In this document: positions 42,459 to 58,402 of the stretch, piece by piece
How the letters are laid out: every line of letters starts with the position of its first letter
Numbering within the stretch: position 1 is the first letter of the stretch
Assembly: GCF_034479635.1 (NCBI RefSeq)
Contig: NZ_CP140153.1
Span: forward strand, 875,501-939,500
From: Guyparkeria halophila
Lineage (GTDB): Bacteria > Pseudomonadota > Gammaproteobacteria > Halothiobacillales > Halothiobacillaceae
Direction: 5' to 3'
DNA: 64,000 bases
Position numbers and translations under genes: made by a program
Notes under the pieces: model-generated
The model's input: the letters and a program-made list of their open reading frames with translations, nothing else
Told to the model about the DNA's origin: nothing
Database searches by the model: none

Positions 42459-43301
42459 ATGGCAAGTGTCGTAAACACAAACATCTTCTCGCTGCAGGGC
42501 CAGAACGCACTGCGCAACACCAACAACACGCTGCAGACCTCGCTCGAGCGTCTGTCCACTGGCCTGCGTATCAACAGTGCCAAGGACGATGCCGCCGGTC
42601 TCGCGATCGCCAACCGTCTGACCACTCAGATCCGTGGTTCGGAAGTCGCGGCTCGCAACGCGAACGATGGCATTTCCATGGCGCAGACTGCTGAGGGTGC
42701 GCTGGGCTCACTGACCGACACCATGCAGCGCATGCGTGATCTCGCGGTGCAGTCGGCCAACTCCACCAACAGCAAAAGCGATCGCGAAAACCTTCAGGCG
42801 GAGTTCGCGCAGCTGCAGGATGAGCTTGGCCGGATCGTAACGAACACCGAGTTCAACGGCCAGAAAGTGCTTAACGGCGATATCTCCAACGGCGCGACGT
42901 TCCAGGTGGGTGCGAACACGACGTCCGACAACCAGATCGTGTTCAGTCTGGCGAACGTGTCGGCAACCATCGGCGCCGCGTTGTCGGGTGATGCAGCTAT
43001 CGGTTCCGGCGCATCGTTTGGCGATATCATGTCGACCATCAGCGCCCTGGACGCGTCCATCACCGCGGTTGACACCACTCGAGCTCAGCTTGGCTCGATC
43101 CAGAATCGATTTGAAGTAACCATCGACAACCTGAACAACTTCGTTGTCAACGAATCGGCAGCTCGTTCGCGGATTCAGGATGCGGATTTCGCCAAGGAGA
43201 CGGCTCAGTTGTCCAAGGCGCAGATCCTGCAGCAGGCCGGCACTTCCGTGCTGACCCAGGCCAACCAGGCGCCGCAGTCAGTACTGGGCCTCCTGGGCTA
43301 A
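42459..43301 (+). CDS. fliC: Flagellin (short type)
   Basis: 280 residues. The N-terminal D0/D1 is conserved ([50 protein letters not shown]) and so is the C-terminal end ([36 protein letters not shown]). The surface domain between them is minimal, about 90 residues rich in Ser, Thr, Ala and Gly. These Ser/Thr residues are plausible glycosylation sites for the Maf and pseudaminic-acid-like pathway encoded downstream. It is driven by two sigma-28 promoters. Confidence 0.97.
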
Positions 43302-46367: not shown

Positions 46368-48947
46368 TCATTTTGGCGGCATTTCAAGAGTAACTCGTGC
46401 CTGATCGAGGAACTCCTGTAGCTCCGAACGCCCTGTTGGCGAACAGTAAGGGAGATACTGCTCACAGAAGTCGATTCCGTCGGGGATTTGGAGTGCCACG
46501 AACAAGCGAACCATCTGCTTGATTCGTCTAACGTCACTGGGGAAGTGTTCCAGATGCCGAGTGAGCGCAGTGATGCCGTTTTCGGCGTCGTTCTCAACTA
46601 GCGCCAGTCTTGCCACCAAGCGCCAGTGCGTCGGGTTGAGAGTGGCCGCTGTCTGCAGTATGGCGAGGGCGTCTGCGCTTTGAGCTGCCTCCAGGTTGAT
46701 GTGGCTCAAACGAAGCAGCGCATGTTCGAGCAGGACGGCGTCCTGTTGCGGGTCGGCTTGTTCAACGACCTTGGTGTGATTGTCTGCGGCAGCCAGCAGG
46801 TCGCCGGACAGTTCATTCAGCAGTCCATTCGCATACCGAGCATATGGTCGGGCCATATCCACTTCCTTGTGATGCTCGAGGGAACCGGCCAATGAGGCGA
46901 GTGCTTGGCGTTTCTGGCTGGTGAACTGTCGCTCGATCTGTCTCAAGGATGCTCTCGGGGAGCGCTTGCGACGATGGCGATCCCGATCCTTTTCGAGCAG
47001 AGTCTCGATCGACGAGGCATAGGCGAGGCGAGCACGTTCTGCTTGCGGGCCCGAGGTTGTCTCGCGATTTGTCTCGAGCCACCCGATACGTTCTGGTTCT
47101 TCGAATTCACGATATCGGCTGGCGAGCTCCTCGCTGTCTACATCCTCACGGAGTTCCAGCAGTCGGGTTTCGATACGGTTACATGCCAGCTTCAGCGGGC
47201 TCACAAGACGACGGGCTTCCTCGCGAATGGCGTCGTAGTAGCGACCGGCGAGGTTCTCGGCCTGCTGGCGATCGAGTTCGAAAAAGTCATGCGGCAGGGC
47301 CGTCCGGAGAATGGCGCGCTTGGCTGCTCGCTGGGCCAGGCGTGCGGCCTGCCGATAACGACCCTCGAAAAGGCGGTCGATTGCCTGCATGCGTCGCTTG
47401 TGTCGTTTCTGTCGTGCGGGATGCGTGAGGTTGAAGTAGGCCTGGTTGGATTCGAGACCTAATTGAGCCAGGTTCGCTACTTTCCGCATGTCCTCCGTGA
47501 TGGTTTCCATGCTTTTAGCCAGTGAATTCAGGTGGGTCTCGCGATCGGTGCGGGTCGTCTGCTGGCGAATACGGTCGAGCGAACTTCGGTCGAATTTCGT
47601 CGGGGGCAGGGAAATGCTTTCCAGCGGCACGAATTCCACGTCATCGATGGCTGCGGCGTTGGCGCTGGGGTTAACAAATCGAACGCTACTGGACTGGCCG
47701 GCAATCTCGGCCATCGCGCGAATGCCGGCGAAATAGTCAGGTGACGTCCACGTCGATTCGCCACGATTGGTGGTGACCGGGAGAGCACTGAAATCCATGA
47801 TGGGGCCAGCCGAGGCCTCACTGCTTCCAGCCGCGTGGGTGCGGCCGTCTGGCGCATGGCAGAGATCCAGTCCGCAGAACACGATTTCCGTGAATCCCAT
47901 GTGAACGGCTAGTTGGGCAGCCATGTGCGTGACTGTCGGTCCCGTTGCGGGAAGAGCATGTTGGTCATTGACTGCCGTGTCTTCCCAAGGAACCAACGGC
48001 CCTACGCAATACAGAGAATAAGGCCAGCGATTCGTGATGGCCGGATAGGGGTGACTGCTCGTCATCAGAATAGTCTGCGCCGGGAAGTCAAACATCTGAC
48101 GGCTGACGGTCAGGCTGATCGGGAACGGGTCCACGGTGACCACGATATCCGGCATGATGCCCATGTCCTGCAGGCGGGCGGAGACGCGAGATACGGCAAT
48201 GACGAACAGCGCCAGACGGTTCTCTCGTATCCAGTCGATCTGATCATCGAGCGAGGGACCGCCAGCGATGATAACGACGCCTTGTCCGACGAACAGGTTT
48301 TCAAATGGGTCGATGCCGCCTTGAAAATTCGGGGCGGAGAGGATGTTGGGTTCGATGAACGGTGCAACGTTGAGCTTGGCTGTCGTCTGGAAACGCTCGG
48401 CGGTCAGATGGGCATCGAGGTGAGCGGTAAGTTCGACGTATTGCGGGTCGGTATTGTCCAGAGCGCCGAGTGAAGGCTCGAGCCTCACGCCATCGATACG
48501 GAAGTACGCCGGAAGCTGGAGCAGTGTGGCTTGTTCCTGCCATTCGTCGAACGCGACCAATTGCACGTAATCGTCACAATATGTGTTGATGACCGGATTC
48601 TGGCGCAAGATCAGGAGGACGTCGTTGGGCTCAATCACGAGCCAGCGACTCCCGCGTGGCATGGGCGCATGCTCGCGAATGAAGCGCAAGAGCTGGCCGG
48701 AATCGCTGCCGATGATGATGTAAAGACGGTCCTCCTGATGCAATCGCTCCCCGAAATGCTCGGCCAGAACTTTCTGGGCATGACTTTTGCTTTCGTCCTC
48801 TGTCGCATATCGTGGCGAACCGAAGTGCCGGGCATTGATGGACGGGAGAATCCAATCCCCATGTTGTGTCTGGAGCCATTCGCGCGAGGATTCCAGGCTG
48901 CCCAAATAGTCTGGATTTGCAGGCGAGGTGCGTTCGACGGGCGTCAT
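46368..48947 (-). CDS. Motility accessory factor (Maf)-type flagellin glycosyltransferase
   Basis: 859 residues from the ATG at 48947; a TTG at 49034 would add 29 residues. The central part carries the DUF115/MptE-like Maf core: GQGVVIIAGGPSLDDQIDWIREN, then MPDIVVTVDPFPIS and ITEIVFCGLDLCHAPDGR-like stretches. N- and C-terminal helical regions flank it; the last 200 residues look like TPR-type helices. Maf proteins transfer nonulosonic acids such as pseudaminic acid to flagellin. The adjacent pse genes and fliC support that role. Confidence 0.87.
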   Translation of the reverse strand: MTPVERTSPANPDYLGSLESSREWLQTQHGDWILPSINARHFGSPRYATEDESKSHAQKVLAEHFGERLHQEDRLYIIIGSDSGQLLRFIREHAPMPRGSRWLVIEPNDVLLILRQNPVINTYCDDYVQLVAFDEWQEQATLLQLPAYFRIDGVRLEPSLGALDNTDPQYVELTAHLDAHLTAERFQTTAKLNVAPFIEPNILSAPNFQGGIDPFENLFVGQGVVIIAGGPSLDDQIDWIRENRLALFVIAVSRVSARLQDMGIMPDIVVTVDPFPISLTVSRQMFDFPAQTILMTSSHPYPAITNRWPYSLYCVGPLVPWEDTAVNDQHALPATGPTVTHMAAQLAVHMGFTEIVFCGLDLCHAPDGRTHAAGSSEASAGPIMDFSALPVTTNRGESTWTSPDYFAGIRAMAEIAGQSSSVRFVNPSANAAAIDDVEFVPLESISLPPTKFDRSSLDRIRQQTTRTDRETHLNSLAKSMETITEDMRKVANLAQLGLESNQAYFNLTHPARQKRHKRRMQAIDRLFEGRYRQAARLAQRAAKRAILRTALPHDFFELDRQQAENLAGRYYDAIREEARRLVSPLKLACNRIETRLLELREDVDSEELASRYREFEEPERIGWLETNRETTSGPQAERARLAYASSIETLLEKDRDRHRRKRSPRASLRQIERQFTSQKRQALASLAGSLEHHKEVDMARPYARYANGLLNELSGDLLAAADNHTKVVEQADPQQDAVLLEHALLRLSHINLEAAQSADALAILQTAATLNPTHWRLVARLALVENDAENGITALTRHLEHFPSDVRRIKQMVRLFVALQIPDGIDFCEQYLPYCSPTGRSELQEFLDQARVTLEMPPK

Positions 48948-49047
48948 GTATGGTTGTCCCTGTGTGTGATCGTTCGGCGCGGCCAGCGGCCGGGCCGGCT
49001 TTGCGTCAAGGATACATAACCCGCCCTTAGGCAAGGGAACAAGTTAA

Positions 49048-51205
<2,158 letters not shown>

Positions 51206-51209
<4 letters not shown>

Positions 51210-51913
51210 GACTCGCGGTGATTCCAGCGCGGGGAGGAAGCAAGCGCATTCCCCGCAAGAACATCCGGGATTTCGGCGGCAAGCCGATGATTGCCTGGTC
51301 TATCGAGGCGGCGCACCAGAGCGGGCGTTTCGATCGGGTGATCGTGTCGACCGACGATCCCGAGCTCGCCGAGGTCGCCCGCACATATGGTGCCGAGGTG
51401 CCGTTCTTCCGGCCCGCTTCGCTGGCCGGGGACCAGGTGGGCACGCGCCCGGTGCTGCACCATGCGCTCGGGTATTTCGCGCAGGCGGGCGAGACGATCG
51501 ACTATGTGCTGTTCATTTACGCGACGGCCCCGTTCGTGACCGGGCGCCGGCTTGCCGCCAGTCTTGACGACTGGCTGGCGGCGTCCGGTCGTCCTGAGCG
51601 TGCCATGGCGGTGACTAGCTTCGCCTATCCGCCTCAGCGGGGTTTCGTGCTGGACCGGGCGGGCCGCATCGTCCCGCCACGGCCCGAGATGATCGCGTCG
51701 CGTTCCCAGGACCTGCCGGCGATGTACCACGATGCCGGTCAGTTCTACTTTACCCGCCCCGACCGGGAGGGAGTCATCCACGACCTGCCCTTCATCCATC
51801 CAGAGACCTGGCCGGTGGTCCTGCCGCACTATCTGGTGCAGGACATCGATGACGAGGACGACTGGATTCGTGCCGAGGCAATGTTCCAGTACATCCGTCG
51901 ACACGAGGCGTAA
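51206..51913 (+). CDS. pseF: CMP-pseudaminic acid cytidylyltransferase, PseF
   Basis: 235 residues. The nucleotidyltransferase motif LAVIPARGGSKRIPRKNIRDFGGKPMIAWSIEAA is at the N-terminus. VIVSTDDPELAEVARTYGAEVPFFRP follows, and AMYHDAGQFYF is the conserved acceptor-site segment. It activates the nine-carbon sugar with CMP for the transferase. It is coupled to pseC upstream and lies 4 bp before pseG. Confidence 0.94.
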
Positions 51914-51917
51914 ACGG

Positions 51918-52940
51918 GTGCGGTTGCTCCTGGTCGTCCATGCGTCGCCACGTTGGGGTTTCGGGCATCTCAATCGTTGTCGCGTGCTCGCCGAGGCGGC
52001 GCGTCGAAGGGGATGGCGGCCCCGGTTGCTGGTGCGTGGTCCGGTTGACGAGGTGCGTAGGCGCCTCTTCGGCCATGATGGAGAGGTGGAGTTGATCCCC
52101 GAAGGTGCCTCGACGACCGAGGAGATCGAGCACTTGGATCTCGCACGGAGGTCGGTCGACCGTGTCATTATCGATCATCCGCACCTTGATGCCGGGAGTG
52201 CAGCTTGGCTGGGCTCCCGGGGTATCCCGTGGCTCACCTTCACCCATCGTGATCACTGGCTCGGCGAGCCCGATTGGCTGGTCAACATTCGCCCTGGATT
52301 GGCTCCGCGCCAGGCATCGGGCCGGACCCGATTCCTCCATGGCCCCGCCTACGCAGTGCTGCGCGAAGAGTTCGCCGAGGCCTGTGAGGCGGCCTACCGC
52401 TCGCTCGGTGAGAACCCCCGGCTGTTCGTGACCTTTGGAGGCGGCGACGATTTTGGTGCCGGCGAATGCCTGCTGCCACCGCTGCTGGAAGCCTTTCCGG
52501 AGCTGGCGGTCGACGTAGTTACCACCCGGGCAAATTCCGGACTGGCGGTCATCGAGGCGCTTTGTCGGACGCATGGCAAACGGGCCGCTCTGCATGTGGG
52601 TCCCGACCGGATGCAGCCGTTGATGTGTCGTGCCGGGGCGGCATTGATCGCGGGGGGCACCACTACCTACGAGCTTGCCGCGGTGGGCATTCCGTTTCTG
52701 GTGGTGACGTTGGTGGAGAATCAGCGTGCGCAGGCCGCCGCCTGGGCGGATCTAGGAGCGGCGGTCGACCTAGGGTCGGTCGACGAGCGCTCGGTAGGCG
52801 ATCGCGCCGTGACGGCCGTCGACGCCCTGGTCCGGGATGCCGGGGCCTGCCAGGCCATGCGGCAGGCGGGACGTCGGCAGGTCGATGGCCGTGGCGCCGA
52901 ACGCATCCTCGAGGCGCTGGCTCAGTCGCCGAGAAGGTAG
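51918..52940 (+). CDS. pseG: UDP-sugar hydrolase PseG
   Basis: 340 residues from a GTG at 51918; the frame also opens inside pseF. The motif WGFGHLNRC places the catalytic His at residue 17, as in Campylobacter PseG. The glycosyltransferase-B-like C-half has FVTFGGGDDFGAG and CRAGAALIAGGTTTYELAAVGIPFLVVTLVENQ. It removes UDP from the bis-amino altropyranose derivative. If the 4-N-acyl group is unusual in this organism, PseG must accept it. Its 3' end overlaps the converging ATP-grasp gene by 19 bp. Confidence 0.9.
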   Translation: MRLLLVVHASPRWGFGHLNRCRVLAEAARRRGWRPRLLVRGPVDEVRRRLFGHDGEVELIPEGASTTEEIEHLDLARRSVDRVIIDHPHLDAGSAAWLGSRGIPWLTFTHRDHWLGEPDWLVNIRPGLAPRQASGRTRFLHGPAYAVLREEFAEACEAAYRSLGENPRLFVTFGGGDDFGAGECLLPPLLEAFPELAVDVVTTRANSGLAVIEALCRTHGKRAALHVGPDRMQPLMCRAGAALIAGGTTTYELAAVGIPFLVVTLVENQRAQAAAWADLGAAVDLGSVDERSVGDRAVTAVDALVRDAGACQAMRQAGRRQVDGRGAERILEALAQSPRR

Positions 52941-54124
52941 TCGATGGCGTTTTCCGCCTGAGTCTCGGCCTCGGCGCGGGAGGTCGCCGTGGCGATCACG
53001 GCCGCGAAGCGCGCCCCGGAATGGGTCAGGCTGGGGATGGGCGCCTCGTGATCGAGATGCCAATGCACGGCGCCAATGCCGCTCAGGCGGCGGGCAGCAG
53101 CCAGCCGCTCGTCATCGGGCCGCTGGTTCAACCGGTGTGCGTCCAGCTCAGTGAGGAAGCGTACGACCAGTGCGGCTTTGGCCGACGAGCGCGGTACCGC
53201 AGACAGCGGCGCCGTCTCACCCAGCGCCTGTGCGATGGCCACATCCACAAGATCGATGCCCGACAGACCGAGTGCGACTTCGCGCATGAATCCGCCGGGG
53301 ATGCGGGCGGCGATCTCCAGCAGACTGGGGCCGGCCAGGCCGACGATGAACTGCGGATAGATGATGCCATCGCGCAGTTCGATTGCCTCCGCTGCCCGTT
53401 GCACGGCCTCATGCAGGGCAGCAAGCTGCGTCCGCTCCAGGTGCGGCGGGGCGGCATGCGCTATCGCGATGCCGAAATGCGGCGGAGCGGCAGTTACCCG
53501 CTCGCTTATCGACAACACGGTGGCCTGGCCGTTCTCGACCACCGCCGTGACGTTGATCTCGGGGCCCGGAACGAAGGTTTCAATCAGTGCCCGGCCATCG
53601 GGGGCATGTGCGAGGGCGTCCGCCACGGCGGCGTCGAGCGAAGCCTCGTCGTCGACGCGGCTCGTGCCGCGCTGGCCCGAGTTTACCGCCGGCTTGAGGA
53701 CGACCGGGAAGCCATTTTCGGTCGTGAAGGCTCGTGCATCATCGAACCCAGTGACCGCGCGGTGAGGGGAGGTCGGGGCGCCGTGGCGGACGAAAGCGTC
53801 CTTCATGGCCAGCTTGTCCGTGGCCAGTTCGGCCGTGCGTTGTGAGAATCCGGGCAGGCTCAGGCTCGCCGCAACCGCGGCCACGGTGGGTACCGCGGTC
53901 TCGGACGACAACGTCATCACGCCGTCGATCTTTTCGCGGCGGGCGAGCGCGATGTTCCCTGCGGCGTCGGTAGTGCTCACGACGTGGAACTCGTCGGCGA
54001 GTGTTGCCCCCGGCGCTGACGGGTCGAGATCGGTAGCTACCACCTCGATTCCGCGGGCGTGGGCACGTTCGATCGCCGGCAACTGTTCCCGTCCGGCGCC
54101 GATCACCAGTAGACGACGTCTCAT
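52922..54124 (-). CDS. ATP-grasp ligase, candidate sugar N-acyl ligase
   Basis: 400 residues. An N-terminal Rossmann-like pre-ATP-grasp part (LLVIGAGREQLPAIERAHARGIEVVATDLDP) is followed by the ATP-grasp fold: GFPVVLKPAVNSGQRGTSRV, PGPEINVTAVV, and LLEIAARIPGGFMREVALG with metal ligands. Such enzymes join a carboxylate to an amine or thiol through an acyl phosphate. Its ATG overlaps the stop of the ComA-ComB fusion, so the two are translationally coupled. In this nonulosonate operon I infer that it attaches an acid, perhaps sulfolactate, to an amino sugar. The exact substrate is unknown. Confidence 0.8.
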   Translation of the reverse strand: MRRRLLVIGAGREQLPAIERAHARGIEVVATDLDPSAPGATLADEFHVVSTTDAAGNIALARREKIDGVMTLSSETAVPTVAAVAASLSLPGFSQRTAELATDKLAMKDAFVRHGAPTSPHRAVTGFDDARAFTTENGFPVVLKPAVNSGQRGTSRVDDEASLDAAVADALAHAPDGRALIETFVPGPEINVTAVVENGQATVLSISERVTAAPPHFGIAIAHAAPPHLERTQLAALHEAVQRAAEAIELRDGIIYPQFIVGLAGPSLLEIAARIPGGFMREVALGLSGIDLVDVAIAQALGETAPLSAVPRSSAKAALVVRFLTELDAHRLNQRPDDERLAAARRLSGIGAVHWHLDHEAPIPSLTHSGARFAAVIATATSRAEAETQAENAIDYLLGD

Positions 54125-55602
54125 GCGCCCCGGTCTCCGGCTCGGCGAATGGTGCTGCCGTCGAAGCGCCCGACCAGGTCGAACCGATCCTCCTCAGCAC
54201 AGTGGATGACGTCCGAGCCGTAGCCGAGCGAGACCAGGTTCATGCCGCTGTCGGAGGACAGGAAGTCGCGCGCCAGGTTGTCGGAGTAGCACGGATTGAG
54301 CGTTCCCCGCACCCAGGGAGTTTCGAGGTGTTCGAGGATCCTGGTTACGCCGATTCGGTCCTCGATGGCAGGCTGATTGTTCCGGCCGGCGGCCAGCAAC
54401 GTGATGGATCGGCCTTCCGCCCGGGCGATCGCCTCGGCGGCTCGGGCCGCGGCCCGAGCATTGTTGACGGTCCCGATCAGCACGGGATTTTTATGGCCGC
54501 CAGCGACGCGAATGCACTCGGTACCGTTGGTCGAGCTGATGACGACATGCTTGCCATGGAAATCCTGGTCGAGGATTTCGGTCGGGCTGTTGGAGAAGTC
54601 TACCCCGGGGAGCTTGGCCCCGCCGCGCTCGGCAAGGGTGACGTCGCCGTTCAGTTCGTCCGCGCCGAGCACCGGCGTGACACTGTCGGCCCCGTTCGCC
54701 AGGCATTGCAAGATGGTCGAGCTGGCCCGTAGCGCATCGACCACGACCACGACATCGCCTCGCTTGTGGGCACGCAGTGCGCCGGCCACGCCGAGTTCCA
54801 AGTAGGTGATGATACGGTGAGGGGCGTGGTCGCGCAGAGTGTCGGCCCGCAGCCCGTGCCGCAGCGAGGCAAGGCTCAGTACGTCGGTGGTTGCGACATT
54901 GCCGATGTTGGCCTCCGGTCCGAGCTGGTGGAGCAGCCAGATCTGCTGAGACCGTTTCGGTGCTTCCCAGATCACGTCCTCCGGGTCGATGTGCTGGAAG
55001 AGCTCGTAGGCTAGTTCGCTGTTGATCTGGCCATTCTCGTCGAAGATTCCCACTGTGCCGGATTCACGCGATTCCATGATCACCTTTTCGGCCCCCGCTT
55101 CCAGATCGGCCCGGATCTCGTCGACCCGGTCGCGGTGAGACAGAGTCGCATCCTCCTGCGGCAGCTTGCGGCCAACCTCGGAAAAGACACGGAATCCCCG
55201 TTCACGTGCCTTATCGATCAGCACGATCTTGTAGTCGCGGTCGATGCGTCCCTCGATGCCGTTCGACACCTCGATCGCATTGAATCCCAAGGTGTCGAGT
55301 TCGTCGAGCAAGGCATCGACGCGATCACGTTGAACCGCCGCCTCCAATAAAGTACCGCCCGGACAGACGAGAAGGCCGTGGTCACGGAATAGTTCGAGCT
55401 TTTCGCGCAGGATCGATTCGGGGTAGAACGCCGATGAGCCATAGGCAAGCTTGATCAGATCGATCTGTCCGGCGGCGGTGGTGACGAGATCGCGGCTGGC
55501 GGCCGGGCCCAGCCCGGAGTCCAGCACCATGGTCCAGCCGGCTCGCCGAGTGGCGGGCGAGGGGGCGTCGAGACCGAAGACCGTCTGTAGCAGATGGGAC
55601 AC
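54121..55602 (-). CDS. Fused phosphosulfolactate synthase (ComA) - phosphosulfolactate phosphatase (ComB)
   Basis: 493 residues from the GTG at 55602, chosen because AGGAG lies 6 nt upstream. Residues 1-256 match ComA: GWTMVLDSGLG, LIKLAYGSSAFYP, VCPGGTLLEA, IEVSNGIEGRI, FSEVGRKL and VIMESRESGTVGIFD. Residues about 278-493 match ComB: VVVVDALRASSTILQ, VVISSTNGTECI and the C-terminal ARDFLSSDSG region. ComA adds sulfite to PEP; ComB removes the phosphate to give 3-sulfolactate. These are coenzyme M enzymes in methanogens; homologues make sulfolactate in Bacillus spores. Here they sit between pseI and an ATP-grasp gene. The fusion and context are unusual. Confidence 0.88.
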   Translation of the reverse strand: MSHLLQTVFGLDAPSPATRRAGWTMVLDSGLGPAASRDLVTTAAGQIDLIKLAYGSSAFYPESILREKLELFRDHGLLVCPGGTLLEAAVQRDRVDALLDELDTLGFNAIEVSNGIEGRIDRDYKIVLIDKARERGFRVFSEVGRKLPQEDATLSHRDRVDEIRADLEAGAEKVIMESRESGTVGIFDENGQINSELAYELFQHIDPEDVIWEAPKRSQQIWLLHQLGPEANIGNVATTDVLSLASLRHGLRADTLRDHAPHRIITYLELGVAGALRAHKRGDVVVVVDALRASSTILQCLANGADSVTPVLGADELNGDVTLAERGGAKLPGVDFSNSPTEILDQDFHGKHVVISSTNGTECIRVAGGHKNPVLIGTVNNARAAARAAEAIARAEGRSITLLAAGRNNQPAIEDRIGVTRILEHLETPWVRGTLNPCYSDNLARDFLSSDSGMNLVSLGYGSDVIHCAEEDRFDLVGRFDGSTIRRAGDRGA

Positions 55603-55616
55603 GTTAGGCTCCTGAG

Positions 55617-56660
55617 TTATTCGATATCGAACCACGCCAGCGGCGTTCCCTTGGGGAGATCACGACGGAAGTGCCTGCCCAGCACCTCCTCGTAATGTCG
55701 GGTCGCCAGGCCATGACCGGGCCGAACCGAGCGGATGTTGTCGGCCGACAGGGGCGTGCCGGCCCGGACGTCGCGGCTGACGTATAGCGAGCGGCGCCGT
55801 TTCCGGGCGTGGCTCTCGGCATCGGTGGTGCCGCCGAACCGGACCTCGCCGATCGCGGCGTGTGCCTCACGGACCAGTCGTGTCAGCTCGGCGAATTCCG
55901 TCGGCTCGAGGGAAAAGGCGGCATCCGGGCCGCCGTCGGCGCGGTCCAGTGTGAGGTGTTTCTCGATCATACGTGCCCCCATCGTGGTCGCCACGAGGGC
56001 GGGCGCCGGTGAAAGCGAATGATCCGAGAGCCCGGCCGGGACCGACCAGAGGCGGCGCATGGCTTCGAGAGTCACCAGGTGGCTATTCTCGACCGGGGCC
56101 GGATAGCTGGACGTGCATTTGAGCAGCACCGGGCCTCGGGCCTGGTGTCGACGGACGGCGCACACCGCCTCGTCGATTTCAGCGGCTGAAGCCATGCCGG
56201 TGGAGACGACGATCGGCTTTCCGGTTATCGCCGCCCTCTCGATCAATGGGATGTCCACACATTCGAACGAGGCGATCTTGTAGGCAGGACAATCGATCGA
56301 TTCGAGGAAGTCGACGGCCTCTAGGGAGAACGGCGCGCTGAACGCAAGGATGCCGCGCTCGCGGGCTCGTTGGAAAAGCGGTTCGTGCCATTCCAGGGGC
56401 AGGGCGGCTTCGGCGTAAAGGTCGAACAGGCGGCGCCCGAACCATGGACTGGACTCGTTCTGGATCAGGAATTCCGAGTGGTCGGCGTCGAGCGTGATCC
56501 ATTCCGGACGGAACGTCTGCAGCTTGACGGCGTCGGCGCCGGCGTCTGCGGCTGCATCCACCAGTGCCAGCGCACGATCCAGTGACTGGTTGTGGTTGGC
56601 GGATAGCTCCGCCACTACCAGGGGCGGACGCGATGCGTCGTAGAACAGTTCGGCGACCAT
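55617..56660 (-). CDS. pseI: Pseudaminic acid synthase, PseI
   Basis: 347 residues from the ATG at 56660 (AGGA upstream); a much longer open frame covers the methyltransferase gene in another frame. It is an NeuB-type TIM barrel: VVAELSANHNQSLDRALALVDAAADAGADAVKLQT, then STGMASAAEIDEAV, KCTSSYPAP and GLSDHSLS. A C-terminal SAF antifreeze-like domain follows (ARKRRRSLYVSRDVRAGTPLSADNIRSVRPG). It condenses PEP with the hexose to give the nine-carbon acid. It belongs to a minus-strand operon converging on pseBCFG. Confidence 0.93.
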   Translation of the reverse strand: MVAELFYDASRPPLVVAELSANHNQSLDRALALVDAAADAGADAVKLQTFRPEWITLDADHSEFLIQNESSPWFGRRLFDLYAEAALPLEWHEPLFQRARERGILAFSAPFSLEAVDFLESIDCPAYKIASFECVDIPLIERAAITGKPIVVSTGMASAAEIDEAVCAVRRHQARGPVLLKCTSSYPAPVENSHLVTLEAMRRLWSVPAGLSDHSLSPAPALVATTMGARMIEKHLTLDRADGGPDAAFSLEPTEFAELTRLVREAHAAIGEVRFGGTTDAESHARKRRRSLYVSRDVRAGTPLSADNIRSVRPGHGLATRHYEEVLGRHFRRDLPKGTPLAWFDIE

Positions 56661-56677: not shown

Positions 56678-57577
56678 CTAGCTGGCCGGTGTGACCAGCA
56701 TGGTGATGTTGCGGCCCATGCCGAGTCGACAGAGGTGCCGGTAGACGGCGAGAGTCTCGCAGGGATCTATGTCGGTCATCGCCGATTCCAGCCGGACTCG
56801 GGCGACATGGGCCGCACGCCCACGGCTCCGATCGGCGATGTAGTTCGCCTCGTCGTTCAGCAAGAACCAGTCGATGGGGAAATCCGAAAAGGCGTCGCGC
56901 ACGGACCATCCGCAAGCTTCGGCGAGGTTTTCCAGGCCGGCCAGATTGAAGTAGTTGAGATGCTCTGGTGGGCAGACCCAGAAAGTGTCCTCGATCAGGC
57001 CCTTGTCCAGCGCCACCTGCTGGGTCACGGAGAAGTCGTTGGGCACCTCGATCATCAGCAAGCCACCGGGTGAACACAATCGGCCCAGCTGGCTCACTAG
57101 CGCAGCGGGCTCGGGCGAGTGTTCGAGGACGTTGTCGAGCCATAGCAGGTCGAACCCGCCTGGCTGTCGTTCAGCGAGTGTATCGAGCGTCTCGTCGACC
57201 TCGCCGCTCAATACGCGATCACATAGGGGGGCGTTGTGGCGGCGGCAGGCATTGTCACTGAAGTCCACACCGGTTACATCCCATCCCCGATCGGAAAACC
57301 AGCGCAGGGCCCAACCCTCGCCGCAACCGACGTCCAGAAAGCGATGGGGGCCCTCGCTGGCGCCCGGAAGGACGTCAATGGCCGCCTGCCGGAGACGGAA
57401 ACGGTTTTCGCGGTGCCGCGTGTCCAGCGGCTGGTAAGTTTTCTTGTAGGTGCCGTGGTCCTGCTGGAAGTACTTGTCCCGATAGAACGCGGCGAGTGTT
57501 TCCCGGGACGGGATCGGCTCGATGTGACGATAGCCCAGACGGTGCGTCACGATTCGGTACGGGGTGCTGGCAGCCAT
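56678..57577 (-). CDS. Class I SAM-dependent methyltransferase
   Basis: 299 residues. The SAM site is FLDVGCGEGWALRWFSDRGWDVTGVDFSDNACRRH, followed by FDLLWLDNVLEHSPEP and GGLLMIEVPNDFS. The N-terminus (TPYRIVTHRLGYRHIEPIPS) and KYFQQDHGTYKKTYQPLDTRHRENR resemble methyltransferases found in surface-sugar clusters. It lies 17 bp upstream of pseI in the same operon, so a sugar or its N-acyl group is the likely methyl acceptor. The acceptor atom cannot be read from sequence. Confidence 0.82.
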   Translation of the reverse strand: MAASTPYRIVTHRLGYRHIEPIPSRETLAAFYRDKYFQQDHGTYKKTYQPLDTRHRENRFRLRQAAIDVLPGASEGPHRFLDVGCGEGWALRWFSDRGWDVTGVDFSDNACRRHNAPLCDRVLSGEVDETLDTLAERQPGGFDLLWLDNVLEHSPEPAALVSQLGRLCSPGGLLMIEVPNDFSVTQQVALDKGLIEDTFWVCPPEHLNYFNLAGLENLAEACGWSVRDAFSDFPIDWFLLNDEANYIADRSRGRAAHVARVRLESAMTDIDPCETLAVYRHLCRLGMGRNITMLVTPAS

Positions 57578-57613: not shown

Positions 57614-58402
57614 TCAGCGCTGAGCGGTTTGCCGCGATGCAACACGACCGATCGCGGGCATCTTGATCCCTAGCTTGTCGGCCAGTGTCAGCGCCCGGGT
57701 CAGTCGCTGCGGCGCCGATCGGCCCATGCACTGGTGCTTCGGATCGCCGTCGAAACCGCGGACCATGCCTTCAATCAGGCGTTGGTGATCGAATGCCTTC
57801 CCCACTTTCGCTTCTTGCAGGGCGATGACGTCCGCTGCGATGTCGCGGGCCAGTTGCTGGTGGTTGCTCCACAGGTCCTCGACGTCGCCGCCGGTTTCGA
57901 GGCCGGCGATGTTGGTGGTCAGGATGTAGACGTTCTTGATCACCAGCTCCTCGAGCATCGCATCGCTATCGGTCACCCGGTGCGCGGGGATGTCGAGTGA
58001 TTGCATGGCCGCGACCAGGGCGTCGGCCTTGGGGCCGTGTGCCGGCGAGGAGATCAGCGGCTTGACCGGCTTGCCGGGCTTTTTCTCGAACCAGATCGAG
58101 GCGACGGTCGGCGTCTCGATGCCGTACTTGCGCCAGTCATTGGGTAGGAGTTCGTTCTGGATCAGCACCAAGCGGTCGTACCAGGCGGTTGGGATGCGTT
58201 CGAGCACCGAATCGAGGTCCTTCTCGCCGACGGCGACCAGCAGCCCGTCGAGGAAGGGGCGGGAGGACAGTGCCGACTCGATGTCGGTGTCCCGTCCGAT
58301 CGGGAAGACGGGGTGGCCGGTCTTGAGCAGGCCGTGGGCGAGCACGCCGCCGATCTCGCCGGCGCCGATAAGGCCCCACTCGGTGGCAAACGGCTGGGTC
58401 AT
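57614..58402 (-). CDS. Rossmann-fold, ketopantoate-reductase-like protein of unknown substrate
   Basis: 262 residues. The start WGLIGAGEIGGVLAHGLLKTGHPVFPIGRD has a GxGxxG dinucleotide site. The middle (LIQNELLPNDWRKYG) recalls the 6-phosphogluconate-dehydrogenase-like reductase folds. The helical C-terminal half has EELVIKNVYILTTNIAGLETGG, where the Lys resembles the catalytic Lys of PanE. It could oxidise or reduce a 2-hydroxy/2-oxo acid such as sulfolactate or glycerate, but that is inference from the neighbours. It sits between the roxA and methyltransferase genes. Confidence 0.62.
   Translation of the reverse strand: MTQPFATEWGLIGAGEIGGVLAHGLLKTGHPVFPIGRDTDIESALSSRPFLDGLLVAVGEKDLDSVLERIPTAWYDRLVLIQNELLPNDWRKYGIETPTVASIWFEKKPGKPVKPLISSPAHGPKADALVAAMQSLDIPAHRVTDSDAMLEELVIKNVYILTTNIAGLETGGDVEDLWSNHQQLARDIAADVIALQEAKVGKAFDHQRLIEGMVRGFDGDPKHQCMGRSAPQRLTRALTLADKLGIKMPAIGRVASRQTAQR

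Follow-up and report, generated by a model that had tools for sequence, protein, structure and literature searches.

In Shewanella oneidensis, the ATP-grasp protein SfmE is encoded together with genes for a mono-N-acetyl pseudaminic acid (Pse) of 274 Da, and the flagellin sugar is, most likely, this single-acetyl Pse (274 Da by mass spectrometry) with a further moiety that is thought to be nitrogen-free and methylated; the part of the report available to us describes this bacterium as having no clear orthologues of PseH, PseG, PseI and PseF (PMC3765264). In Clostridioides difficile, according to the accessible portion of the paper, an ATP-grasp mutant loses the sulfonated flagellin cap (PMC5207246). 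Here we describe a flagellar Pse cluster of Guyparkeria halophila that contains a single gene fusing phosphosulfolactate synthase (ComA) and phosphosulfolactate phosphatase (ComB). The cluster lies in a stretch of 64,000 nucleotides (contig NZ_CP140153.1, positions 875,501 to 939,500), called the window below. At a conserved site, PseH is replaced in this genome by ComA-ComB, an ATP-grasp ligase and a methyltransferase, and the gene content suggests that sulfolactate probably enters the flagellar glycan. The genes of the cluster, with their coordinates in the window, are as follows.

54121..55602, minus strand: ComA-ComB fusion, 493 amino acids (aa), predicted to convert phosphoenolpyruvate (PEP) and sulfite into (R)-3-sulfolactate
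54841..55551, minus strand: ComA half, phosphosulfolactate synthase domain, residues 18-254 (PF02679, 2.1e-75)
54163..54771, minus strand: ComB half, phosphosulfolactate phosphatase domain, residues 278-480 (PF04029, 7.3e-39)
52922..54124, minus strand: ATP-grasp carboxylate-amine ligase, 400 aa, candidate for the attachment of sulfolactate to the 4-amino sugar
55617..56660, minus strand: pseI, pseudaminic acid synthase (TIGR03586, 430.8 bits, cut-off 340.25; the listed open reading frame (ORF) starts further upstream)
56678..57577, minus strand: S-adenosylmethionine (SAM) methyltransferase, 299 aa (PF13489, 4.4e-23), possibly for O-methylation of the acyl group or the sugar
49060..50064, plus strand: pseB (TIGR03589, 545.5 bits, cut-off 407.75), 95% identical to sister species
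50061..51209, plus strand: pseC, 4-aminotransferase (TIGR03588, 535.5 bits, cut-off 423.5)
51206..51913, plus strand: pseF, CMP-Pse synthetase (TIGR03584, 257.1 bits, cut-off 205.7)
51918..52940, plus strand: pseG, divergent UDP-sugar hydrolase, proposed GTG start (best match TIGR03590)

The minus-strand block of methyltransferase, pseI, fusion and ATP-grasp genes faces the plus-strand genes pseB, pseC, pseF and pseG. PseB, PseC, PseF and PseI all score above the NCBI curated cut-offs, and PseG, at 117.7 bits, is under its own (153.55). A preliminary description of this DNA, made from the sequence alone, had placed the fusion between pseI and an ATP-grasp gene, which is where it lies: pseI is 14 bases upstream of it, and the start of the ATP-grasp gene overlaps its stop by 4 bases.

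The same description, which gave no strand, had read this minus-strand frame as phosphosulfolactate synthase joined to phosphosulfolactate phosphatase, and the profile searches assign each half to the family so named. Residues 18-254 match Pfam family PF02679 (ComA) with 253.8 bits (cut-off 25.2), residues 278-480 match PF04029 (2-ph_phosp) with 133.7 bits (cut-off 26.4), and the best NCBIfam matches are the same two families. In sequence searches of the PDB, the ComA half finds ComA of Methanocaldococcus jannaschii (1qwg, 1.1e-50), and the ComB half alone finds 2z0j, 2yyv and 1vr0 (4.3e-17 to 4.7e-15). The predicted model of the ComA half superimposes on 1qwg with a TM score of 0.92 (by target length), at 2.3 Å and 37% identity. 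For the whole fusion, the predicted model is reliable over the ComA half only; pLDDT is mostly below 50 in the ComB half, probably owing to the placement of ComB rows across ComA columns in the alignment. The EVGxK, RESG and EAP stretches are retained in alignments of the ComA half, as is the equivalent of M. jannaschii Lys137, which we take to be the catalytic lysine. The frame starts with GTG, has CAGGAG ahead of the start and contains no internal stop; a search of its own genome with the fusion finds this single place only. From its domains, the fusion very probably makes sulfolactate from PEP and sulfite. The host had also been taken for a sulfur oxidiser, and indeed its genome encodes SoxB (802 bits); sulfite would be on hand in the cytoplasm of such an organism.

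The site of the cassette is defined by comparison with relatives, and five further features of the window border it or belong to the same flagellar region.

42459..43301, plus strand: flagellin gene, likely acceptor, 280 aa with 53 Ser/Thr (assigned by eye from the ORF)
43939, plus strand: fliD (assigned by reading, not by family search)
45350, plus strand: fliS (assigned by reading, not by family search)
46368..49034, minus strand: Maf/PseD-like flagellin glycosyltransferase (PF01973 MptE-like, 3.8e-33)
57614..58402, minus strand: conserved right-hand flank gene outside the cassette, 85-86% identical in sister species, where it stands beside a standard pse operon

The Maf-like transferase is far under the cut-off of NF050051 FlagModPseD (33.5 bits against 670), and the 262-aa product of the flank gene has no Pfam or NCBIfam match. 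In sister species, the flank gene adjoins a JmjC gene, and related genes flank the pse operon of another family (L168; loci and genomes are referred to by our L and G handles).

Ten other genomes of the genus were searched for the fusion. It was found in one of them, G004, whose genome is 64% complete; the other nine, three of them less than 90% complete, gave no match. The G004 relative (locus L024) is the same fused frame, 87% identical, in an identical gene order: methyltransferase, PseI, ComA-ComB and ATP-grasp, facing PseG, PseF, PseC and PseB, then Maf. Both fusions found (2/2) are in pse clusters, a co-occurrence that the preliminary description had suggested mapping. In the sister species G003 (L097) and G005 (L099), a standard pseB-C-F-G-H-I operon lies at this site, bordered by the Maf gene and by the counterparts of the flank and JmjC genes, and the same standard layout is seen in G172 (L168), from another family of the class. 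At the DNA level, collinearity of the window with the two sisters ends at about 51.5 kb and restarts at 57.67 kb, the right side being 84-88% identical; between these points only part of pseI aligns, and therefore about 6 kb has been exchanged. The site thus exists in two states, one with pseH and the other, in the window and in G004, with the fusion, the ATP-grasp gene and the methyltransferase gene. G003 carries, besides the operon at the Maf site, a second standard pse operon with a PseH of its own (L098:10359-15929).

No relative of the fusion was found in viral contigs, and a scan of genome contigs with the single fusion protein, which reaches close relatives only, gave one contig, evidently that of G004. 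A phylum-level draw of 398 genomes (E<=1e-15, at most three candidates scored per genome) gave the fusion itself and two weak matches to halves. A plasmid scan gave 37 records, one of which, from Legionella lytica, covers most of the query, with ComA and ComB as separate genes.

PseH itself was sought in several ways. Searching with the NCBI model TIGR03585 gave two matches above the cut-off in G003 and also placed G005 above it; the complete G. halophila genome yielded nothing at E<=1e-3, and G004 yielded one match, on a different contig and far under the cut-off (27.9 bits against 93.1). Neither the window nor L024 is matched by a custom PseH profile that was seeded with the PseH sequences of the two sisters and iterated on the stretches it was then used to search. 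This profile was also run over pse clusters of the class: in a draw of 341 genomes, all 34 other places with PseI above the cut-off were examined, and at 90 bits or more, 19 of the stretches have a PseH match no further than about 2 kb from pseI, four have one elsewhere, and 11 have none. In at least three of these 11, a different enzyme that is likely to catalyse N-acylation is encoded close to pseI. In two of them (L148:10198-10842 and L172:8700-9356; best matches under NCBI cut-offs) it is a formyltransferase-like protein whose gene sits between pseG and pseI, and in the third (L177:8745-9380; best match under NCBI cut-offs) it is a NeuD-type acyltransferase beside pseI. Among the remaining eight there are short contigs and stretches with extended PseI frames. 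A missing PseH match alone is therefore not special, and the enzyme of 4-N-acylation seems to have been exchanged repeatedly in pse clusters, the slot being modular. Because TIGR03585 misses many GNAT proteins (nine genomes above its cut-off, compared with 33 for PseI, of 341), setting PseH loss against ATP-grasp gain genome by genome is uninformative. The pse cluster at L132:9218-11450 has a GNAT gene, an ATP-grasp gene and then an HMGL-like aldolase gene; it was considered as a second replacement of PseH by ATP-grasp and ruled out, as the sensitive PseH profile and Pfam show the GNAT.

The Pse enzymes of the window differ in their divergence according to their place in the pathway. Eleven standard loci were compared, namely L097 and L098 of G003 and nine of the 34 stretches chosen for their PseH match; L099 was excluded as a near-duplicate of L097. 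PseB and PseC, which act before acylation, are ordinary: mean identity of the window to the standards is 71.9% for PseB (65.5% among the standards) and 61.2% for PseC (63.0%). The enzymes acting after acylation are outliers, with 49.8% against 58.5% for PseF (nine loci), 47.0% against 60.9% for PseI, and 25.4% against 40.2% for PseG (16 loci), where the window and L024 have the lowest means of all. Such divergence of PseF, PseG and PseI fits a changed acyl group. When the window is compared with L024, synonymous sites come close to saturation (pS, the proportion of synonymous differences, is 0.70-0.82), and the nonsynonymous proportion, pN, amounts to 0.077 and 0.073 in the halves of the fusion and ranges from 0.103 (PseB) to 0.300 (PseG) for the other cassette genes, with the methyltransferase compared over its last 121 residues only. 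No other gene of the cassette is as constrained as the fusion, whose pN/pS of about 0.10 indicates purifying selection. A chance fusion, or an error of sequencing or assembly, is excluded by this ratio and by the 87% identical fused relative with the same gene order.

Amino acid ligases with ATP-grasp folds form amides from a carboxylate and an amine. The ATP-grasp protein of the window matches PF13535 with 45.4 bits (cut-off 27) and PF02786 with 56 bits (cut-off 19.8); LAL_C2 (PF18603) is matched with 23.1 bits, under the cut-off of 29.4, which its relative in L120 exceeds at 76.5. The closest structures to its predicted fold (pLDDT 88.4) are 4dim, whose title names phosphoribosylglycinamide synthetase, and three L-amino acid ligases, BacD, RizA and a Bacillus licheniformis enzyme (3vmm, 4wd3 and 3vot, the last with a TM score of 0.79). 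As modelled, the ligase has the L-amino acid ligase fold. Relatives were sought in 369 genomes of the class (E<=1e-20, at most five candidates scored per genome) and found in 15 other genomes. In 13 of these, a homologue of PseB, PseC, PseF, PseG or PseI lies within about 10 kb (tblastn, E<=1e-4, several being near the limit), the sole one in seven of the 13 being a PseC-like aminotransferase; the same search found none around the relatives in L124 and L134. In L121, Pfam detects genes for a thiamine diphosphate (TPP) enzyme, a methyltransferase, a NeuB-type protein and a cytidylyltransferase near the ligase, a cluster that resembles the sfm cluster of S. oneidensis as given in the accessible part of its description (PMC3765264).

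For the reactions, the amide and its position, and the acceptor, we infer the following route. PseB and PseC would make UDP-4-amino-4,6-dideoxy-AltNAc as usual. The ComA half would combine PEP with sulfite, and the ComB half would strip the phosphate, giving (R)-3-sulfolactate, which would take the place of acetylation at the 4-amino group: the ATP-grasp enzyme would activate the free carboxylate of sulfolactate and form the amide with that group. The divergent PseG, PseI and PseF would then lead to CMP-Pse5Ac7-N-sulfolactyl; the methyltransferase may methylate the sulfolactyl sugar, and the Maf-like transferase would put this sugar on flagellin. The route calls for a free carboxylate unobstructed by phosphate, a requirement that would account for the fusion of synthase and phosphatase. 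The predicted residue, Pse5Ac7-N-sulfolactyl (C14H22N2O11S), has a mass of 426.094 Da, or 440.110 Da with one methyl, compared with 316.127 Da for ordinary Pse5Ac7Ac. This chain as a whole, in which a module that makes and attaches sulfolactate replaces PseH and the ligase joins sulfolactate to the amine that PseH would use, is in our estimate slightly favoured by the genomic record.

Several observations weigh against the route. The support for it is genomic only. The fusion is known from two species only, in scans at the level of genus, class and phylum, and pse stretches without a PseH-like match are not unusual (11/34 of the others). The PseG, PseI and PseF outliers could be explained by faster evolution alone. 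The neighbour counts of the ATP-grasp relatives are raw counts, DegT aminotransferases being common in sugar clusters, and the window ligase has no match in any of the 34 pse stretches (phmmer, E<=1e-8). In L132, from genome G167, a PseH-like GNAT and an ATP-grasp protein occur together, and therefore the ligase need not replace PseH. Finally, both halves of the fusion are under the NCBI equivalog cut-offs, the ComA half with 264.6 bits for TIGR03849 (cut-off 280) and the ComB half with 107.6 bits for TIGR00298 (cut-off 175.05).

The last point would suit a ComA half of changed substrate, combining PEP with another nucleophile, so that the attached acid is not a sulfonate. The closeness to M. 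jannaschii ComA in sequence and predicted fold, the retained motifs and presumed catalytic lysine, and the fused ComB partner speak against this, and we hold such a change to be highly improbable. The case of L132 bears on another explanation, namely that sulfolactate reaches the flagellar glycan elsewhere: the ATP-grasp enzyme would put sulfolactate, or a derivative, on another amine or an outer residue, and an unrecognised enzyme would acylate the 4-amino group. There is a precedent in C. difficile, where, according to the available part of the report, the sulfonated component caps an outer sugar and not Pse (PMC5207245). Against this, the interval of 51.5-57.7 kb contains no other recognised gene for amide formation or acyl transfer, the divergent enzymes are those directly after 4-N-acylation, and PseH is without a match at E<=1e-3 in the genome; we regard attachment at another position as unlikely, if less so than a changed substrate.

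A further possibility is that the fusion is merely housed in the pse cluster and that its product serves outside glycans, as a coenzyme M precursor, compatible solute or sulfite sink. ComA and ComB are known in coenzyme M synthesis of archaea, and ComA occurs in alkene-oxidising bacteria. Bacillus subtilis, which we take to be a maker of sulfolactate, gives matches in the ComA control search, and a sulfur oxidiser may need a sink for sulfite. Coenzyme M synthesis is rejected as the role, as neither comC nor comE was found in the genome: PF02615 (comC) has no match, and the best match to TIGR03846 (comE) is 19.8 bits against a cut-off of 221.5. The lyase and pyridoxal phosphate (PLP) enzyme of bacterial coenzyme M synthesis, as seen in L029, are not among the neighbours of the fusion, no genome-wide search for them having been made. 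The 4-base overlap with the ATP-grasp gene, the 14-base gap to pseI and the same gene order in a second species tie the fusion to the cluster, and its absence from the nine other genus members searched argues against a housekeeping role. A non-glycan function is accordingly given a low probability, hardly above that of a changed substrate. The preliminary suggestion that sulfolactate is here a building block for the flagellar glycan and not for coenzyme M agrees with the state of comC and comE.

ComA genes elsewhere in the class offer a broader view of their use. Among 369 class genomes, 12 have ComA above the cut-off, G. halophila included; the neighbourhoods of the 11 others were mostly judged by reading ORFs. 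A neighbourhood of coenzyme M type was seen in one of the 11, L029, with lyase and PLP-enzyme genes that adjoin ComA (by Pfam) and that presumably represent the bacterial coenzyme M route; coenzyme M genes beside most homologues would have spoken for that role. In three of the 11 (L025, L028 and L034), ComA lies in a surface-glycan cluster. L025:7067-10702 encodes an aminotransferase, an AMP-forming ligase, a WbuX amidotransferase and, beside ComA, a histidine phosphatase; its flippase-type match is under the cut-off, and its match to 3'-phosphoadenosine 5'-phosphosulfate (PAPS) reductase comes from a short frame that barely reaches the cut-off (22.5 bits). L028:1677-5890 has PAPS reductase beside ComA, together with a histidine phosphatase, an ATP-grasp protein, a glycosyltransferase and a flippase-type protein. 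The histidine phosphatase and PAPS reductase of L025 and L028 look like a stand-in for ComB and a source of sulfite. L034:4687-7419 has a ComA-ComB tandem, and the next gene is ATP-grasp-like (45.7 bits for its best NCBIfam match, which is under the cut-off, and nothing in Pfam); genes for glycosyltransferases, an MBOAT acyltransferase and a Wzy_C protein are in the vicinity. L026 and L027 are ComA-ComB tandems with no pse or glycan genes in view, the former beside an AMP-forming ligase and the latter at a contig end. The ComA of G053 is broken by stops. In L030 (a contig of 3.7 kb), L031, L032 and L033, no telling neighbour of ComA was noticed by reading, these loci being too distant for tblastn at 1e-5. 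The ComA of the Legionella lytica plasmid (L101:6817-9729) is annotated as a frame of 970 residues with a long N-terminal extension and an aminotransferase gene ahead. The ComA proteins of L026, L027 and L101 are 40-43% identical to the ComA half of the window and have ComB directly downstream; they differ from it in being encoded by separate genes, and no pse genes were noticed in the stretches read. This small sample suggests that sulfolactate, activated by different ligases, has been used in surface glycans more than once. The more general proposal, that sulfolactate is a recurring acyl block of bacterial surface glycans, made by ComA and activated variously by ATP-grasp or AMP-forming ligases, and that it here replaces the N-acetyl group introduced by PseH, giving Pse5Ac7-N-(3-sulfolactyl), a sulfonated sugar resembling sialic acid, on flagellin, is put forward tentatively, at somewhat less than even chances.

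If the proposal is true, a sulfonated member joins the pseudaminic acids, and ComA-ComB gains a role beyond coenzyme M and spore sulfolactate. The 4-N-acylation step of nonulosonic acid synthesis would be exchangeable as a cassette, even for a charged acid derived from the cell's own sulfur chemistry, and ComA would acquire a testable function in several other surface-glycan clusters. Phage receptors and natural sources of organosulfonates would be concerned as well.

The elements of the proposed route are known separately. ATP-grasp proteins are known in flagellin glycan synthesis and a sulfonate is known on flagellin; for sulfolactate in a bacterial glycan or flagellin, no report was seen among the titles and opening lines of the papers that our searches listed, in a library with few subscription journals. 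Type B flagellin of C. difficile is like the proposed product in carrying a sulfonate whose presence needs an ATP-grasp protein, and differs in that, in the accessible parts of the two reports, the sulfonate is taurine, with Ala and Gly, on a chain containing Fuc3N, and neither pseudaminic acid nor sulfolactate is involved (PMC5207245, PMC5207246). The sfmABCDE cluster of S. oneidensis shares with the window an ATP-grasp protein and a methyltransferase in a Pse-type flagellin pathway, and has a TPP enzyme and a reductase instead of ComA-ComB, the modification formulae in the available part of the report being without sulfur (PMC3765264). Like archaeal ComA and ComB, the fusion has both catalytic domains and would carry out the two opening reactions, which lead from PEP and sulfite to sulfolactate; in the window, unlike in archaea, the domains are fused and placed in a flagellar sugar cluster, in a genome where comC and comE were not found. 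The standard Pse pathway of Campylobacter and Helicobacter, PseB-C-H-G-I-F, is likewise found by flagellar genes and a Maf-like gene; in the window, which has no PseH match, ComA-ComB, the ATP-grasp ligase and the methyltransferase stand instead.

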